64,000 nt of DNA from Tardiphaga sp. P9-11. Lineage in GTDB: Bacteria > Pseudomonadota > Alphaproteobacteria > Rhizobiales > Xanthobacteraceae. Shown one piece after another: positions 3,000-16,250 of this stretch. The stretch's first letter is position 1, and each line of letters opens with the position of its first letter. The notes beneath the pieces are model-generated. The model ran no database searches. It saw only the letters and a list, made by a program, of their open reading frames with translations, and was not told the DNA's origin. The stretch is from positions 930,001 through 994,000 of the forward strand of contig NZ_NPKQ01000002.1 in the NCBI RefSeq assembly GCF_008329525.1, in the 5' to 3' direction. The position numbers were made by a program, and so were the translations under genes.

Positions 3000-4100
3000 T
3001 TATTCTTCGACCGGCTCCTCGCCGTCATGATCTTCATCGCGCTCGACGGGACCGGCCAGAATCTGTTCGGCGATCAGTCCGGAATTCTGCCGGATCGAGG
3101 CTTCGATCCTGGCGGTCATGTCCGGATTAGCCTTGAGGAAGGCCTTGGAATTCTCGCGACCCTGACCGAGGCGCTGGCTGTCATAGGAGAACCAGGCGCC
3201 GGACTTCTCGACGATTCCCGCTTTCACGCCGAGATCGAGAATTTCGCCCATCTTGGAAACGCCTTCGCCATACATGATGTCGAATTCGACCTGCTTGAAC
3301 GGCGGCGCCAGCTTGTTCTTCACGACCTTGACGCGAGTCGAGTTACCCACGACTTCGTCGCGCTCCTTGATCGCACCGATGCGGCGGATGTCGAGACGAA
3401 CCGAAGCGTAGAATTTCAGCGCATTGCCGCCGGTGGTGGTTTCCGGCGAGCCATACATCACACCGATCTTCATGCGGATCTGGTTGATGAAGATCACCAT
3501 CGTATTGGACTTGTTGATCGAGGCGGTCAGCTTGCGCAGCGCCTGGCTCATCAGACGGGCCTGCAGGCCGGGCAGCGAATCGCCCATTTCGCCTTCGAGT
3601 TCGGCACGCGGCACGAGAGCTGCGACGGAGTCGACGATCAGCACGTCCACCGCGCCGGAGCGCACCAGCGTATCGGCGATTTCCAGCGCCTGTTCGCCGT
3701 GATCCGGCTGCGAGATCAGGAGTTCATCGACATTGACGCCCAGCTTGCGGGCATAGACCGGGTCGAGCGCGTGTTCGGCGTCGATGAAAGCACAGATGCC
3801 GCCCTTCTTCTGGGCCTCGGCCACGCAATGCAGCGCCAGGGTGGTCTTGCCCGACGATTCCGGTCCGTAAATCTCGATCACCCGGCCCTTCGGCAAACCG
3901 CCGACGCCGAGCGCGATATCAAGCCCGAGCGAGCCCGACGAGATGACCTCGATATCCATCGAACGGTCATTCTTGCCCAGCTTCATCACCGAGCCCTTGC
4001 CGAACTGGCGCTCGATCTGGGAGAGCGCGGCCGACAGGGCCTTGGTCTTGTCCATGGAGGATCCTTCAACGATACGCAGGGCAGTCGGAGTGGCAGCCAT
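3000..4100 (-). CDS. recA: Recombinase RecA
   Basis: Strand-exchange ATPase and LexA co-protease, 366 residues. Walker A GPESSGKT is at residues 79-86. The ATP-binding core, the L1/L2 DNA-binding loops (with [21 protein letters not shown]) and an acidic C-terminus ([13 protein letters not shown]) are all present. The frame stays open upstream, but the ATG at 4100 has a strong AAGGAG ribosome-binding site (4107-4112) seven bases away and gives the N-terminus expected of rhizobial RecA ([12 protein letters not shown]). Expression should be damage-inducible, because a perfect SOS box lies 100 bases upstream of the start. Confidence 0.98.
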
Positions 4101-4199
4101 GATTAGCTCCTTATGAAGGGATTCGCGACAGAGACAAAAGACAAGCGCCAAAACGACGGCGCTGCTCGGGCTGAAATCAATGTACCCTATCTGTTCTAT

Positions 4200-8374: not shown

Positions 8375-8644
8375 TTAGTTCGCGGCGTTGCCGGTCTTGG
8401 TGCGCGGCTGTTTGGCGGGCGCTGCGGCTTTCGGCGCATCGCTACGCACATTGCCCCACGGATCGGACGCCGCCTTGGTATCGGGAATCTTGCGCAGCGA
8501 CTCGCGATACGCCTTCTCGGTGATCGCGTCCTGCTCCTTCTCCTCAGCCGACTTGCTCTTCACCTCCGGCATCAGGTTCATCATCTGCGCAGCGGCCGGT
8601 CCGGTCAGAAGCGCAAGCACTGCAACAACGCTCAATAGTTTCAT
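8375..8644 (-). CDS. Small secreted protein with DPWGxVR motif (paralogue 1)
   Basis: 89 residues with an N-terminal signal peptide (MKLLSVVAVLALLTGPAAAQ). The mature part contains EKAYRESLRKIPD and, after a short linker, DPWGNVR, then a Lys/Ala-rich tail. The same architecture recurs in the protein at 10760-10996, and the two genes flank the caspase-like gene on the same strand. Predicted periplasmic; role unknown. Confidence 0.75.
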   Translation of the reverse strand: MKLLSVVAVLALLTGPAAAQMMNLMPEVKSKSAEEKEQDAITEKAYRESLRKIPDTKAASDPWGNVRSDAPKAAAPAKQPRTKTGNAAN

Positions 8645-8903
8645 GGCACCAAAGCTCCGTGAATTCGGGAGCGTTATATCACTGGCCGTTCGGGCCCGCC
8701 AAGCACCTGACGCAGGGCACCCCGTCCTGTCTCAGGCAGGTCGAAACGTCCGGACATGTGCCATATCGGCCCTGTTCCCGATCGTCCCCCGTCAGATATT
8801 GATGAAGGATGAACAGGCGGGTCCGAATCTCGGGGATCGGCTTCATCGGCCAGCAAGAGCGCGGTGCTAGACATGGTCCGTGCAGACGATACGGACGACG
8901 ACC

Positions 8904-9143
8904 ATGATCGAGAAACGAACGGCTCCACGGCACCGGGTTCTGAAGCGCGGCACGCTGGCCTTCGGCGGCGGCGGCGTTGATTGCACCGTCCGCAACCTCT
9001 CGGCCTCGGGCGCGCGCGTGGATATCGCAAGCCCGATTGGCGTGCCGCAGAATTTCATGCTGGTGATCGAGGCGGATCAGTTCATCCGCCGCTGCCGCTC
9101 GGTATGGAATAACGACCGCCAGCTTGGCGTGGCGTTCGAGTAA
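8904..9143 (+). CDS. PilZ-domain protein
   Basis: 79 residues comprising a single PilZ domain: N-terminal RxxxR-type element (KRTAPRHRVLKRG) and VRNLSASGARVDI, matching the D/NxSxxG c-di-GMP-binding pattern. Start at ATG 8904 places the RxxxR motif at residue 4. It probably binds cyclic-di-GMP and acts as a stand-alone receptor. The flagellar genes are far away in this window, so its target is unknown. Confidence 0.85.
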   Translation: MIEKRTAPRHRVLKRGTLAFGGGGVDCTVRNLSASGARVDIASPIGVPQNFMLVIEADQFIRRCRSVWNNDRQLGVAFE

Positions 9144-9152
9144 ACGCGCCCG

Positions 9153-10586
9153 TCAGTAGCGCCCTCGGCCGCCATAGTTGCCGCCGCCGTAACCGCCATA
9201 GCCCCCGCCGCCGTAATAGACGCGCGGCGCCGGCTCGTAATAGACTGGTGGCGGAGCACGGCGAATAACGATCTCTTCTTCCACAATCTCACGGCTGCGT
9301 CGCTGTGATGGCTTGTCGGCGCGCTTCTTCGCAGGCTCGCTCTTTTCCGCCTTCTTCGAGGCCGGTGCTGCTGCCGGCGGCGCTCCGCAGGGGCATGTCG
9401 GCGCGGCGAGCGCGACATTGGTTGCACCTGCCGTTCCGCCGGCAGCAACCGGTACCGGCTTGTTGAGCGTGCGCTCTTCGAGCTTCTGCGCAGTGGAGGT
9501 CAGGTCGCTGTCGGGATATTTCGCCAGGAAGTCGCGATAGGACGGCGCAGTGTTGGTGATGACGGCATTGTTCCACGCCACCATTTTGTAGTGACGGTCG
9601 AGCCAGTCTTTCGCCTGCGGGCCCAGCGGGGGCTCGGCATAGAGGCCGACAAAGGCCTCATAGGCTTCAACCGAACCATCCGAGACGATCAGGTTGTTGG
9701 CGTCCTGCACCGGCTTGCCCTGTAGCTCCTTGCGCCATTGATCGACGGTCTTCCTGGTCACGGCCGGCTTGGCGCCAGCATCGCCGCCAAAGAAACGGAA
9801 GTCATTGACCAGCGATGAACTCTCCCATGGCGTCTGCCGGCCTTCGGTGGCCTGATTGACCGACAGCCGTACGCGCTTGAACGCATCCTCGATCGACAGG
9901 CCCGGTTCGCGACCGGCCTTCAGGAGCGCTGTCGTGTAGGGGCTGTTGCCGTCCTTGCCGTCTTCGGCTTCGGCACCGGGCGAGGTGGAGAATGACAGCA
10001 GCGTGCCGGGCGTGCCGAACTTCACGTCGATCTGGGCGAGACCGCGGCCGGTGGTCTTGCTGATCGCGGGGAACGGATTGTTGCGGCAGGCGTCGAGCAG
10101 GATGATGCGGCTCTTGCTCGGCACGGATGTCAGCGTGTTCAGGATATCGTTGAGCCGCACCGCCTGCAGCGGGATGTCAGCCTCGCGCTTCGGATCGATA
10201 TCGACCGGCACCAGATAATTCTCGCCATCGATCTGCAGACCGTGGCCGGCATAGAACACCAGCGCCACCGTATCCGGCCCCTTGGCGGATACCGTCGCGG
10301 CAAAGGCGGCGATCCTGCCGCGCAGATCGTTCTGAGACAGGTCCGTGGCCGACTGTACCTCGAAGCCAGCATCGCCGAGCATCTGCGCCATGGCCTTGGC
10401 GTCATTGACGGGATTGGGCAGCGGCGCGACGGCGCGGTAGGAAGACTGCCCGATCACCAGCGCCACACGGCTTTCGGCCAAAGCGGCTGTTGAGCCGAGA
10501 AGAACTGCGCTCTGGGAGCCGAGCATCACGGCGGCAGCGGCGATGGCATTACGAATAGTCGTGTTGTGTATGACCGGACGAACCAT
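9153..10586 (-). CDS. Secreted caspase-like (peptidase C14 / metacaspase) protein
   Basis: 477 residues. A signal peptide (residues 1-37, ending AALAES) precedes a caspase p20-type domain (about 39-275). The catalytic pair is visible: His115 in FYAGHG and Cys167 in LLDACRNN. The C-terminal part holds a Lys/Ala/Pro stretch and ends in a Gly/Tyr-rich tail (YGGGGYGGYGGGNYGGRGRY). ATG at 10586 was preferred for its GGGGAG ribosome-binding site. Predicted periplasmic cysteine protease of Arg/Lys-directed type by family; substrate unknown. Confidence 0.9.
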   Translation of the reverse strand: MVRPVIHNTTIRNAIAAAAVMLGSQSAVLLGSTAALAESRVALVIGQSSYRAVAPLPNPVNDAKAMAQMLGDAGFEVQSATDLSQNDLRGRIAAFAATVSAKGPDTVALVFYAGHGLQIDGENYLVPVDIDPKREADIPLQAVRLNDILNTLTSVPSKSRIILLDACRNNPFPAISKTTGRGLAQIDVKFGTPGTLLSFSTSPGAEAEDGKDGNSPYTTALLKAGREPGLSIEDAFKRVRLSVNQATEGRQTPWESSSLVNDFRFFGGDAGAKPAVTRKTVDQWRKELQGKPVQDANNLIVSDGSVEAYEAFVGLYAEPPLGPQAKDWLDRHYKMVAWNNAVITNTAPSYRDFLAKYPDSDLTSTAQKLEERTLNKPVPVAAGGTAGATNVALAAPTCPCGAPPAAAPASKKAEKSEPAKKRADKPSQRRSREIVEEEIVIRRAPPPVYYEPAPRVYYGGGGYGGYGGGNYGGRGRY

Positions 10587-10759
10587 CGAACAATCTCCCC
10601 GGCCAGGCCGGCTCGCGCGACGGATCATTCCCCGCCTGATTCAAATGACATCAGGATGGCCGCTCGCCAACAATGCGACGGCCTGCCGCTGCCCAATTTG
10701 GTCGCGATGAACGCAGGCGCGGTTCATGGGAACCGCGCAGGAGCCGGGCTGTCGGAATA

Positions 10760-10996
10760 CTACTTTTTCTTCGCGGCCGTTGCAGCCGCGGGAGCTGGCG
10801 CGACGCCGCCCCACGGATCGTATTTTTCCTTCGGCGTAGGAACCCGCTCCAGGGCGGCCTTGTAGGCCTTCTCGTCGATCTTGGGCTTTTCGGGCGCAGG
10901 CGCATGGTCGGCGCCGCGCTTGCCCCCGCCCATCTGTGCGTTCGCCGGCGCAGCCAGAAGCGCCAGTGCCGCGATCGCCAATACCAATGCTCTCAT
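10760..10996 (-). CDS. Small secreted protein with DPWGxV motif (paralogue 2)
   Basis: 78 residues, signal peptide MRALVLAIAALALLAAPANAQ, mature part with EKAYKAALERVPTPKEKYDPWGGV and an Ala/Lys tail. It shares this layout with the protein at 8375-8644. The ATG at 10996 has a strong GGAGGG ribosome-binding site. It lies 173 bases upstream of the caspase-like gene on the same strand. Role unknown. Confidence 0.75.
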   Translation of the reverse strand: MRALVLAIAALALLAAPANAQMGGGKRGADHAPAPEKPKIDEKAYKAALERVPTPKEKYDPWGGVAPAPAAATAAKKK

Positions 10997-11307: not shown

Positions 11308-12519
11308 GTGGTCGACATTGCAAACCCAGCCGGCACGTATGGCAGCAGAGCAACGGGCGCCGGGATGACCGCGGCGAACCGCCCAGCGTCCGTGCCCGAT
11401 GCGCTTGCGCCGCTCGCAGCAATCCCGCCCGAGCCATGGCGTGCTCTCGCGCAGCTGGCCGTCGAGCCGAACGGCTATTACCTCGCCGACTGGGAACTGG
11501 CCGTAAATGCATCAGCGCGCGGCCGCACCGATGTCGCCGCACTCAGCGCCTGGATGAGCGACGCCGGAACGCCTCGGTTGATCGGACTACTGCCGGTGAT
11601 CACCGCGCGTCGCGCCTATCGCCTGCCTCTCCCCGCACTGGTGAGCGCCGATCCCTATGGCACGCTCTCCACGCCGCTGCTCGATCGCGACATGGCCCCT
11701 GATGCCGTCACGCGCCTGATGGAGCAGGCCCGCAAGGCCGGCGCGCATGCGCTGATTCTCGAGAACGTCTCGCTCGACGGCGCAGCGATGCAGGCGATCC
11801 GCCAATCGCTGGCCATGCAGGATCTCGCACCGCGCATCCTGCAATCCCACGCCCGCGCCTGTCTCGATGCCACGCGCGATGCCGACGATCTGCTGCGCGA
11901 TGCGCTCGGCGCGAAGAAGCTGAAAGAACTGCGCCGCCAGCGCAATCGTCTCGCCGAACATGGCGATGTGACCTTCCATATCGCGCGCACGCCGGCGGAA
12001 ATCGCTGCGACCATTGACACGTTCCTGACGCTGGAAGCGAGCGGATGGAAGGGCAAGCGCGGCACGGCCCTGATGCAGGATGCCGGAGACAGTGCCTTCA
12101 TCCGTAGCGCCACCAGGGCGCTCGCCGAACGCGGCCAATGCGAGATCGTCACTTTGCGTGCCGGCGACACGCCGGTCGCCTCCGGTGTGCTGCTCCGGCA
12201 TCTCGATCGCGCCTTCTATTTCAAGCTCGGCGTCGACGAGCGCTTCGCCAAACTGTCGCCCGGCGTGCAACTCACGCTCGATGTGACGCGGCATCTCTGT
12301 GCCGATCCGGCGATCGCCTGCGCCGACTCCACCGCCAATGCCGGCCACCCGATGATCGACCCAATCTGGCGCGGCCGCCTCGCGATCGGCAACGTCCTGA
12401 TTCCGCTCCGCAAGCACGACCCGCTTGTCTCGCTCATTCACGGCGCACTCACCTTGCGTCGCACGATCCGCGAGCCGTTGCGGCGCGTGGCCCGCTCTAT
12501 CCGCAACCGCCTCCGCTAG
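11308..12519 (+). CDS. GNAT-fold acyltransferase (BioF2-like, Acetyltransf_6)
   Basis: 403 residues with the FemAB/BioF2-like N-acyltransferase architecture, including SADPYGTLSTPLLD in the first half and KKLKELRRQRNRLAEHGDVTFHIARTPAEI followed by FLTLEASGWKGKRGTAL in the second, which is the family hallmark. The family acetylates or acylates amino groups, often in polysaccharide or lipid assembly. The start is uncertain: GTG at 11308 or ATG at 11365. It is followed after 18 bases by a JmjC-like gene, suggesting a two-gene operon. Confidence 0.8.
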   Translation: MVDIANPAGTYGSRATGAGMTAANRPASVPDALAPLAAIPPEPWRALAQLAVEPNGYYLADWELAVNASARGRTDVAALSAWMSDAGTPRLIGLLPVITARRAYRLPLPALVSADPYGTLSTPLLDRDMAPDAVTRLMEQARKAGAHALILENVSLDGAAMQAIRQSLAMQDLAPRILQSHARACLDATRDADDLLRDALGAKKLKELRRQRNRLAEHGDVTFHIARTPAEIAATIDTFLTLEASGWKGKRGTALMQDAGDSAFIRSATRALAERGQCEIVTLRAGDTPVASGVLLRHLDRAFYFKLGVDERFAKLSPGVQLTLDVTRHLCADPAIACADSTANAGHPMIDPIWRGRLAIGNVLIPLRKHDPLVSLIHGALTLRRTIREPLRRVARSIRNRLR

Positions 12520-12537: not shown

Positions 12538-13482
12538 ATGAACGCTGCAACTGACGTCGCGCCGGTGATCTCGGCGGCCAATCAATCACTCAAGAACGAT
12601 TTTCCGCTGAAGCCGTTCGCGATTAGGCACAAGCTCGCCGGTCATCCGCTGCTGACGCTGCCGCGCATTGCGCAGCTCGCATCCGAACTGCCGCGCGATC
12701 TCATCGAATACAATTCAGGCAAGGTTGCGATCAGCCAGGACCCTGACGCGATCCCGTCGGTCGACCTCGATCCGGTCGAAGTCGTCAGGCGCATCGAGAC
12801 CGCCGGCGCCTGGATGGTGCTGAAGCGGATCGAGAACTCCCCCGAATATCGCCAGTTGCTCGAAGACACGCTGCTGTCGGTGGCGCGCGCCCGCGGCTTC
12901 AACAGCCTGCTCGATGCCGGCTTCGAACAGCTCGAAGGCTTCCTGTTCGTTTCCTCACCGAATTCGACCACGCCGTTCCATCTCGACAGCGAGGATAATT
13001 TCTTCGTCCAGATTCACGGCGAGAAGTTCTTCACGATCTATGACAACAAGGACCGCGCCATCGTGTCCGACGACGAGATCGAGCGCTCGATGACCAAACA
13101 TCGCAATCTCAAATTCGACGACAGCTTCGCGCCTCGCGCGGTCGAGTTTCACATGTTCGATGGTGATGGCTGCTACGTGCCCTATCAGTGGCCGCACTGG
13201 GTACGCACCGCCGGGTCGTTCTCGATCTCGATGGCGATTACCTGGAAGACCCGGGAAGTACGCCGCCTCAACGACCTGCACTTCTTCAACTCGATGCTAC
13301 GCGGCGTCGGCCTCCCGCAGAAGCCGCCGGGACGGCAGCCGGTGCTGGATACGCTGAAGCTCGCCTTCTATCGTACCGTGACCACGGCGATCAAACCGCT
13401 GCGCAGCTCGCTGGCGATGCGCAAAGTGCTGCGCCGCATCGCACTCGGCAAGAAGGCGAATTATTATCTGAAGGACGCGTAG
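12538..13482 (+). CDS. JmjC/cupin-like Fe(II)/2-oxoglutarate oxygenase candidate
   Basis: 314 residues. A double-stranded beta-helix oxygenase motif is visible: HLDSEDNFFVQIHGEKFFTIYD (His148, Asp150) and YVPYQWPHWVRT (His220) give an HxD...H triad like that of JmjC/cupin_8 proteins. A later Lys/Arg-rich helix and Tyr-rich end follow. Reaction and substrate are unknown; hydroxylation is inferred from the triad only. It is paired with the upstream acyltransferase. Confidence 0.75.
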   Translation: MNAATDVAPVISAANQSLKNDFPLKPFAIRHKLAGHPLLTLPRIAQLASELPRDLIEYNSGKVAISQDPDAIPSVDLDPVEVVRRIETAGAWMVLKRIENSPEYRQLLEDTLLSVARARGFNSLLDAGFEQLEGFLFVSSPNSTTPFHLDSEDNFFVQIHGEKFFTIYDNKDRAIVSDDEIERSMTKHRNLKFDDSFAPRAVEFHMFDGDGCYVPYQWPHWVRTAGSFSISMAITWKTREVRRLNDLHFFNSMLRGVGLPQKPPGRQPVLDTLKLAFYRTVTTAIKPLRSSLAMRKVLRRIALGKKANYYLKDA

Positions 13483-13492
13483 GCGCGCGCCC

Positions 13493-14158
13493 TTACTCCG
13501 CCGCTTCCGCGTTCACTTCCGCCGAGACCTGACGGATCGCACGCGCGAGCTTCTCAGCATCCTGCGCGCCGGATACGGCATATTTGCCGGCGAAGACGAA
13601 AGTCGGTACGCCGGAGATACCCTTGTCGGCGGCTTCCTTGGCGTTACCGGAAATCAGTTCGACGTCTTCATCAGTGGCGAGGCGCTTGCGGATCTCATCC
13701 GCATCGAGACCGACATCGGCCGCAGCCTGCACCAGCGTCTCGCTCTGGGTGAGATCGCCGCCATCGCGGAAATACAATTCCATCAGACGCTGCTTGACCT
13801 CGGCCGACTTGCCGGAGGCTTCGGCCCAATGGATCAGCCGGTGGCAATCGATGGTGTTGGGCTGGCGCTTCACGCTGTCTGGCCGGTAGGTCAACCCCTC
13901 CTGCTCGGCGGCATCGACCACACGGCCGGCAATGCCTTTATAGGCTTCCACCGAACCGAATTTGGTTTCGAGATAGGTCGAGCGATCGATGCCCTCGCGC
14001 GGGATCCACGGATTGAGGAAGAACGGCCGCCAATTGACATGCACCGGCACGTCGGAGGCCAGCGCCAGCGCATTCTCGATGCGGCGCTTGCCGATATAGC
14101 ACCACGGGCACACGACGTCGGAGACGATATCGATTTGAAGCGGCTTGATGGTGCTCAT
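13493..14158 (-). CDS. DsbA family oxidoreductase (FrnE-like)
   Basis: 221 residues, no signal peptide. CPWC at residues 17-20 (after DIVSDVV) and the cis-Pro loop GVPTFVF mark a cytoplasmic DsbA-fold thiol oxidoreductase of the FrnE / 2-hydroxychromene-2-carboxylate isomerase-like group. ATG at 14158 follows GGGAGCC. It is convergent with the JmjC-like gene. Physiological partner unknown. Confidence 0.9.
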   Translation of the reverse strand: MSTIKPLQIDIVSDVVCPWCYIGKRRIENALALASDVPVHVNWRPFFLNPWIPREGIDRSTYLETKFGSVEAYKGIAGRVVDAAEQEGLTYRPDSVKRQPNTIDCHRLIHWAEASGKSAEVKQRLMELYFRDGGDLTQSETLVQAAADVGLDADEIRKRLATDEDVELISGNAKEAADKGISGVPTFVFAGKYAVSGAQDAEKLARAIRQVSAEVNAEAAE

Positions 14159-15156: not shown

Positions 15157-15555
15157 ATGATCAATCCCTCTCTCCTGCTCCGCCGCGCCATCCAGATCGA
15201 CGCTGTCGTCTCGGGCGCCATGGCGCTACTGCTGACCTTTGCCGCAGCGATGCTGGCACCGCTGCTGCATCTGCCCGAAACACTGCTGCTGGAATCCGGC
15301 CTGTTCCTGATTGCCTATGCGGCGCTGGTCGGCTGGCTCGGCACCCGCGCGACCATGCCGAAGCTGCTGGTGCTGGTCATCATCATCGGCAATGCGCTGT
15401 GGACATTGGGCAGCATCGGCCTGCTGTTCTCGGGCGCGGTGACGCCGAACCTGCTCGGCCTGATCTTCGTGGCCGCGCAGGCGATCGCAGTCGGCGTGTT
15501 CGCGGAGCTGCAATATATCGGGCTGCGCCGAAGCGCAGCCGCGCAGGCGGCTTAA
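15157..15555 (+). CDS. Four-helix integral membrane protein, hypothetical
   Basis: 132 residues with four membrane segments and short loops, ending in a basic Ala-rich tail. Divergent from the XRE regulator, so probably its target. The stop codon TAA overlaps the stop of the convergent SET-domain gene inside the palindrome CTTAAG (15551-15556 region). Role unknown. Confidence 0.8.
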   Translation: MINPSLLLRRAIQIDAVVSGAMALLLTFAAAMLAPLLHLPETLLLESGLFLIAYAALVGWLGTRATMPKLLVLVIIIGNALWTLGSIGLLFSGAVTPNLLGLIFVAAQAIAVGVFAELQYIGLRRSAAAQAA

Positions 15556-16250
15556 GCCGCCTTGCTCCTGGCCTTGCCGGTCTTGGCTTTACCGGACTTG
15601 GCTTTAGACTTAACCGACTTGGCCTTGGTCGCTGCGGAAGTCTTCTTCGCGGCGGCCTTGGTCGTTTTGGCTTTTCCCGACGCCTTGGCTTTCTTCGCTT
15701 TGGCCTTGGCCCTCTTGGCTTTCGCCTTTTCTTCCTTCTTCAGCGCCTTGCGCTCGGCCTTTTCCTTGGCCTTCAGTTTCTCGGCACGGGCCTCAGCGCG
15801 CTTCCTCTTGCGCTTCTTCTCGCAGGCGTCGCACTTGCAGCCGATCGGCTTCAGGTATTCCTTGAAATACTCCGTGCCGTAATCGTAGTTGATCTCTTCG
15901 CCCGGCTCGATCTTCTTAATCGAGCGGATGATGATCTTCTTCTTCGCCGCGTTGACGTCGGACTCGGCGTTCGGCTTGCAGGCGTGGTTGATATAGCGCG
16001 CGATGTTCTTGCGGATCGAACCGTCGACGGTCCAGCGCTTGCTGATCTGGAACAGGTACTTGTTCTCGATCGCGTCGTGCTTCTCGTTCTTCGAATCCAG
16101 CAGGGGTCCGAAGTATTGGACGATCTTGACGCCCTTCTTGATCGGCTGGGTGGCGAAAAGACCGAGACCGGTTTTGGAACGGCCGATGCGATATGGCTTG
16201 GCGGAAGTCGAGGCGGGCATGGGATGAGGAACTGACGCTGCTGGAGACAA
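15552..16250 (-). CDS. SET-domain methyltransferase with histone H1-like Lys/Ala-rich tail
   Basis: 232 residues. SET domain at about 20-125 with GLGLFATQPIKKG, NHACKPN (88-94, the NHSCxPN motif) and EEINYDYG (118-125), followed by the post-SET Cys cluster GCKCDAC (138-143). Residues 144-232 are almost only Lys, Ala, Arg, Ser, Thr and Gly (repeated AKAKKAKA / KSKAKSGKAK), as in histone H1-like or Hc1-like proteins. Predicted protein-lysine methyltransferase with a DNA-binding tail. Bacterial SET proteins are often acquired; what it methylates is unknown. Confidence 0.9.
   Translation of the reverse strand: MSPAASVPHPMPASTSAKPYRIGRSKTGLGLFATQPIKKGVKIVQYFGPLLDSKNEKHDAIENKYLFQISKRWTVDGSIRKNIARYINHACKPNAESDVNAAKKKIIIRSIKKIEPGEEINYDYGTEYFKEYLKPIGCKCDACEKKRKRKRAEARAEKLKAKEKAERKALKKEEKAKAKRAKAKAKKAKASGKAKTTKAAAKKTSAATKAKSVKSKAKSGKAKTGKARSKAA

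Follow-up and report, generated by a model that had tools for sequence, protein, structure and literature searches.

Metacaspases and orthocaspases, the prokaryotic caspase homologues of peptidase family C14, are the closest described counterparts of a gene in a 64,000-nt stretch of the Tardiphaga sp. P9-11 genome (assembly GCF_008329525.1, contig NZ_NPKQ01000002.1, positions 930,001 to 994,000; hereafter the window). The apparently secreted C14 (caspase-fold) peptidase encoded there (9153..10628, minus strand) shares with them the caspase domain and the His-Cys dyad, but adds an N-terminal signal-like stretch, a helical domain (residues 295-389) and a Pro/Gly/Arg-rich tail with a C-x-C motif. 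Two small genes for apparently secreted proteins of an unnamed family, here called DPWG, flank it on the same minus strand: A (8375..8644) and B (10760..10996), the latter adjoining C14. The initial annotation read this arrangement as a functional module in which A and B act as substrate, inhibitor or chaperone of the protease. We favor block synteny, in which the three genes have independent functions and form no dedicated three-gene module, and put the probability of this reading at about two in three. The case shows that a striking flanking pair can reflect block synteny.

Linkage between DPWG and C14 genes was measured in 84 fetched loci, some on short contigs, around 102 DPWG genes (from 137 hits, the best-scoring ones and one weaker). 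A C14 gene on the same strand lay within 8 kb of 34 of the 102, in 25 of the 84 loci, and DPWG genes are thus not scattered at random with respect to C14. All 25 linked loci bear at least one marker of a single block (SET, DsbA, JmjC, GNAT, RecA). The 59 unlinked loci comprised 19 with block markers and 40 without, and C14 was present in 0/40 of the marker-less loci. The linkage is thus genuine, yet every linked locus carries the markers of one block and no C14 was found at marker-less loci; within the loci covered it represents one inherited block. Across the 84 loci, linkage to C14 in independent contexts was not found. A conserved neighborhood exists but does not amount to good evidence for a dedicated module.

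Other observations on the block point the same way. In 26 genomes, namely the 25 chosen as linked plus G093, GNAT was near the block C14 in 23 and a DPWG gene in 25, the latter figure following from the choice of genomes; in 9 of the 26 the gene immediately upstream of C14 was a DPWG gene. The block of G093 still groups SET, DsbA, GNAT and C14 but has no DPWG gene, which in this genome sits at another locus, close to a RecA gene (L123). No DPWG match at E≤1 was found in 11 additional C14 loci (a picked sample with 16 C14 genes of ≥200 bits). DPWG genes also occur in contexts with no protease, next to thiolase/MutS, YdjM, DEAD helicase, HisS and amidohydrolase genes. Contig-derived and genome-derived loci overlap (L230-L232 are L043-L045, and L233 contains L134) and L095/L163 and L100/L164 are pairs, so counts that mix locus sets are not independent.

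The block order in Tardiphaga, Bradyrhizobium and relatives is SET - DsbA - (JmjC) - GNAT - [B] - C14 - (PQQ dehydrogenase) - PilZ - HdeA - thioesterase - small lipoprotein - A - ... - RecA, with GNAT, JmjC, PilZ and HdeA named by Pfam and RecA, DsbA, SET, PQQ dehydrogenase, thioesterase and Lon (a neighbor of other DPWG genes, below) named by eye. The window has a variant in which PilZ alone stands between C14 and A. This PilZ-domain gene (8886..9143; PF07238, E 8.3e-8) is on the plus strand, so A, C14 and B form no contiguous run or operon. On the B side are a SET-domain-like gene (15552..16250, minus), a DsbA/FrnE-like gene (13493..14158, minus), a JmjC_2/cupin-like gene (12538..13482, plus) and a GNAT-domain gene (Acetyltransf_6; 11308..12519, plus), and RecA (3000..4151, minus) marks the opposite edge. 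The window is part of a 6.16 Mb assembly, and for this locus the nearest relatives with a name are strains of Tardiphaga robiniae. A phage or mobile-element origin was rejected: A had no plasmid match, neither A nor B matched a PHROGs family, and the window contains no tRNA.

Loci that have lost the protease provide a second line of evidence. We picked by eye 27 loci, mostly from Bradyrhizobium, in which the syntenic C14 is absent and A and B are both kept (L074, L115, L122 and L131 also lack C14 but were left out). A tblastn search at E<1 found no C14 remnant in 26 of the 27; one locus of the set, L057, has a different C14, 36% identical and on the other strand. A and B are under purifying selection where the syntenic C14 is gone. 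In Bradyrhizobium-type loci, the median ratio of nonsynonymous to synonymous substitution rates (dN/dS) of the B core was 0.039 without C14 versus 0.042 with it, and the mature proteins gave 0.21 versus 0.19 for B and 0.26 versus 0.21 for A. By these estimates B shows no C14-related constraint. For comparison, seven Tardiphaga-type loci with C14 had core dN/dS values of 0.20 for A and 0.09 for B. The loss or relaxation that a dedicated partner would undergo once C14 is lost was thus not found, except that the A core is partly relaxed (below), and constraint on the DPWG proteins does not require the protease.

The proteins themselves match their first description. Open reading frames for two paralogous small proteins are present, both with the EKAYxxxLxxxP and DPWGxV blocks and with an N-terminal stretch that, judged by eye, resembles a signal peptide and ends in A-x-A-Q, and A and B are 47% identical over 30 aa (single BLASTP comparison, E 1e-8). 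Their placement on one strand, either side of the caspase-like gene, is likewise confirmed by the coordinates and the PF00656 match of C14, with the PilZ gene intervening on the A side. A has 89 aa, with the motifs EKAYRESLRKIP at 8483-8518 and DPWGNVR at 8444-8464; B has 78 aa when the ATG at 10996 is taken as its start (a longer TTG open reading frame extends to 11203), with EKAYKAALERVP at 10838-10873 and DPWGGV at 10802-10819. They are the sole two convincing members in the genome, whether the query is A (third match E 0.05) or a 52-sequence profile (third match E 0.04). Neither matched a named family above cut-off in Pfam, NCBIfam, PHROGs or PADLOC. In the PDB, no relative of DPWG was found by fold (Foldseek) and none was significant by sequence profile, and among the literature matches listed "DPWG" was only an abbreviation of working groups.

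A set of 209 distinct sequences gave the family core [ED]KAY[KR]xxLxxIP[DE]xKxxxDPWGxVR, in which D, P and W are invariant, within a common plan of signal peptide, [ED]KAY[KR]xxLxxIP, DPWGxVR and basic tail. A family survey with DPWG profile A2 found a match at E≤0.001 in 92/149 genomes (five with weak matches only). A search of the order gave 6/199, all six from the same bacterial family as the source, and one of the class gave 2/240, the own genome and one weak match. The profile was scored on the best 22-36 candidates per genome, making this a weak test outside the family in which distant members may be missed. DPWG proteins are an unnamed family detected almost only in the source's bacterial family. 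A tree of the short sequences (FastTree, weak) splits type A, which lies 3' of C14 and includes A of the window, from type B, which adjoins C14 and includes B of the window; the types were cut from the leaf order of this tree without support values. AlphaFold (AF2) models A (pLDDT 74, pTM 0.35) with helices at 2-13 and 16-22, in the signal-peptide part, and a confident one at 33-51. The DPWG segment and the Lys/Pro/Ala-rich tail, with no regular structure after helix 33-51, look extended or disordered in the model.

The C14 gene has the sequence marks of a caspase-fold peptidase. Its caspase domain matches PF00656 (E 1.6e-42) and the dyad (GHG ... DACR) is intact; GHG and D[AS]CR occur in 72/72 syntenic C14 sequences (some records doubled) and in 13/16 non-syntenic ones. 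The product is listed at 491 aa, though the conserved start region of the orthologues makes the ATG at 10586 a more likely start than the listed 10628. The model comprises a caspase domain at about 50-280, the helical domain and the tail, which bears its conserved C-x-C at residues 412-414 and a Gly/Arg-rich end. MALT1 is the top Foldseek match (E 1.4e-15) and the MALT1 paracaspase is also the nearest solved relative by sequence. The EACC1-associated caspase family (NCBIfam NF047832) has the same caspase domain, but at 63 bits against a cut-off of 140 the window's C14 is not a member. PADLOC gave only its generic caspase model at the locus, for C14 alone, and we rejected identity as a defense system. 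The lineage is rich in caspase homologues: 102/149 family genomes have C14 homologues, 1 to 17 each among the matches listed. The source genome has six C14 genes, and a DPWG gene was not detected near the other five. A limited look at the literature found nothing on what switches this C14 on, and no match for orthocaspase with Bradyrhizobium.

A promoter-like element sets C14 apart from its flanking genes. Between the stop of B and C14 lies a two-box sequence, TGAACC-N17-GACC (10700..10726, minus strand), identified by pattern match and conservation, with 1 match in the window versus 0.12 expected. A loose pattern, defined with the sequences already in view, occurs in 59/66 syntenic C14 upstream regions (reversed control 0) but in 1/207 DPWG upstream regions (control 1), in 0/16 non-syntenic C14 and in 1/5 own-genome C14 paralogues; five more loci all had it, L218 alone being a new record. 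The boxes align in 51/66 of the syntenic upstream regions (47 distinct segments), and their spacing is identical in 51/51 with four lengths allowed. The strict form has 57 matches in 1.9 Mb of loci, 44 of them directly upstream of a called C14; of the 13 labeled far, 10 fall within C14 reading frames taken from stop to stop, in their 5' part. A simple B-C14 operon was rejected, given that the gap between them carries its own conserved promoter-like element; co-transcription by read-through from B is still compatible with it.

Several observations weigh against block synteny as the whole explanation. In Bradyrhizobium-type loci the core of A is under weaker constraint when C14 is missing (median dN/dS 0.26 versus 0.12 with it), a point for some C14-related constraint on A, which a partnership would predict. 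In loci that have lost the syntenic C14, A and B could work with a paralogue of it instead; in a whole-genome search of three of the 27 (G064, G024, G086), the best C14 elsewhere was 52-54% identical. Across 149 genomes, 75 have DPWG and C14, 12 DPWG only, 27 C14 only and 35 neither, a positive co-occurrence (odds ratio 8.1, Fisher p 4e-8) that is uncorrected for kinship and scores five genomes with only weak DPWG matches as lacking DPWG. The type-B gene is 3' of C14 in L085, L095/L163 and L100/L164 and 5' elsewhere. B-C14 adjacency thus outlived a change of side, more than whole-block order requires, and on this ground the module reading stays viable for B, which may have a relationship with C14. 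Finally, the envelope-ligand mechanism that we propose below for A and B is drawn from predicted shape and conservation.

These points, together with the flanking of this C14 by both DPWG genes of the genome and the 25 linked genomes of the family survey, are what favors A and B as dedicated substrates, inhibitors or chaperones of the flanking protease. A caspase homologue specific for Lys/Arg would also fit their basic tails, and both types look exported. We nevertheless consider this explanation unlikely. It is opposed by the absence of linkage where block markers are missing, the purifying selection on A and B in C14-less loci, the promoter-like element that C14 has and the DPWG genes lack, and the five other C14 genes of the genome without DPWG. 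In addition, 12 of the 87 DPWG genomes have no C14 at E≤1e-5, and seven of the 12 are ≥90% complete. Of the module first proposed, the conserved neighborhood stands, but the evidence does not make a good case for A or B as a dedicated partner of any of the three kinds.

Under block synteny with independent functions, we hypothesize that C14 is exported through Sec as a catalytically competent protease of caspase fold and that its own promoter drives at least part of its transcription, probably on demand. A and B would be exported and lose their signal peptide after A-x-A. The helix EKAYxxxLxxIP together with DPWGxVR would then dock on a constant envelope partner while the tail, basic and disordered, would touch the envelope, a job independent of the syntenic C14. 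On the predicted structure, DPWG proteins are probably envelope peptide ligands.

A second alternative pairs type A with a tiny lipoprotein in the envelope and leaves C14 unrelated. A gapped-dyad search for a shared upstream motif of DPWG genes gave patterns of relatedness only, and that candidate was rejected; the search decides nothing, as its reversed control merely mirrors the dyads, but it led to a gene upstream of A for a putative lipoprotein of ~40-50 aa ending CTKCGPIWDDW...PKSCKSD (examples around 5701 in L061 and around 6005 in L124). It lies ≤420 nt upstream of 52/78 distinct type-A sequences, compared with 0/78 for type B and 1/51 for other DPWG types, and the pairing is also seen where C14 is absent. 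However, 26/78 type-A genes, the window's included, have no such lipoprotein, which is thus not needed, and the link may again be block synteny; the motif was not found in the window or beside A in L043-L046 and L178. C14 lies within 8 kb of ≥43/78 type-A genes, and both C14 and the lipoprotein accompany 20; most contig-derived loci covered ~6 kb upstream of the match, making the C14 count a lower bound, and two type-B entries without assigned context were scored as without C14. We regard such a pair as improbable, more so than a dedicated C14 partnership.

Other DPWG genes have proteases of different kinds as neighbors. An S41 protease adjoins the DPWG gene in L142 and L182 and is one gene apart in L198, and a further DPWG group lies directly downstream of a Lon-like gene (L080, L130, L133, L147, L149). 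Least probable of the alternatives is that A and B associate with proteases in general, as peptide tags, decoys or adaptors for several exported ones, a view favored by these neighbors and by C14 in the block, but opposed by the protease-free DPWG contexts, by the cytoplasmic location of Lon and by the possibility that the S41 cases are all orthologous copies of one locus, and the Lon cases likewise.

The promoter-like element upstream of C14 is, in our view, the best lead from the locus; the leads gained are this element, common to two exported C14 genes, and the unnamed family of secreted DPWG peptides. Promoters recognized by extracytoplasmic function (ECF) sigma factors typically contain GAAC. 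The C14 element shares with them two short boxes, a fixed spacing and GAAC in its -35-like box, and its geometry, conserved in orthologues, resembles an ECF-type promoter. Its boxes, TGAACC and cGACC[AC]A[TA], differ from the group ECF29 consensus (-35 GGGAAC, -10 GCATCCAA) and from the Sinorhizobium-group consensuses quoted in PMC6180224, and from the Bradyrhizobium EcfF consensus (GTAAC) quoted in PMC3420878.

In the genome as a whole, TGAACC-N16-[CT]-GACC has 18 matches compared with 8 for the reversed pattern; some of these lie inside genes. One match (contig 28, plus strand, G000:C28:101587-101613) precedes a second, distantly related secreted C14, 66 nt before the start used and 39 nt before the first ATG of the frame. 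This gene was found through the pattern itself, and its orthologues serve as the check. Among those with 300 nt upstream, the element was present in 13/15, own gene included (a sixteenth is cut at 69 nt); it was not found in L263, from another genus, or in L261, from the source genus. All 13 are from the source genus, five being 91-100% identical to the query, and the spacer has diverged in the rest.

We tentatively propose that TGAACC-N17-GACC marks a small regulon of exported caspases, in which two secreted C14 peptidases from separate loci, and perhaps PG-binding trypsin-like and C92 amidase-like proteins, would be co-induced by one ECF-type sigma factor under envelope stress. We hold this to be possible but somewhat doubtful; that the 13 element-bearing orthologues of the second C14 all belong to one genus speaks for caution. 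If true, such a regulon would provide a defined signal for the periplasmic caspases of bacteria and assign them a testable part in envelope remodeling or self-lysis. Three further matches in the genome were recorded: one (L237:1501-1527) precedes a gene for a secreted PG_binding_1/Trypsin_2 protein, another (L238:1501-1527) one for a C92 amidase-like protein, and in L242 an LprI-like gene starts 229 nt away. On sequence evidence, the genes near these matches are possible regulon members.

A perfect 9-bp hairpin, GCGCGGTTC-CCAT-GAACCGCGC (10717..10738, minus strand), overlaps the TGAACC box, and similar hairpins occur in 6/42 B-C14 gaps (window, L043-L046, L178). It may hide the box or act as a site for a regulator. 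A role as rho-independent terminator was rejected; there is no T-run, and a terminator scan found 2 versus 2.4 expected from shuffles.

Two further neighborhoods of the DPWG genes deserve mention. The S41 neighbors in L142, L182 and L198 belong to third DPWG copies in genomes of genus g25 (G122, G105, G138), and the protease, adjoining or one gene away, is of S41/CtpA type with a PDZ domain. We also considered B as a small subunit of a PQQ dehydrogenase and rejected this, such a gene being present in only 42/157 gene-called loci. In Bradyrhizobium loci (L086, L088-L092, L101-L106 and others) a gene that by eye is PQQ-dehydrogenase-like follows C14 on the same strand, and in several C14-less loci B lies directly upstream of one.

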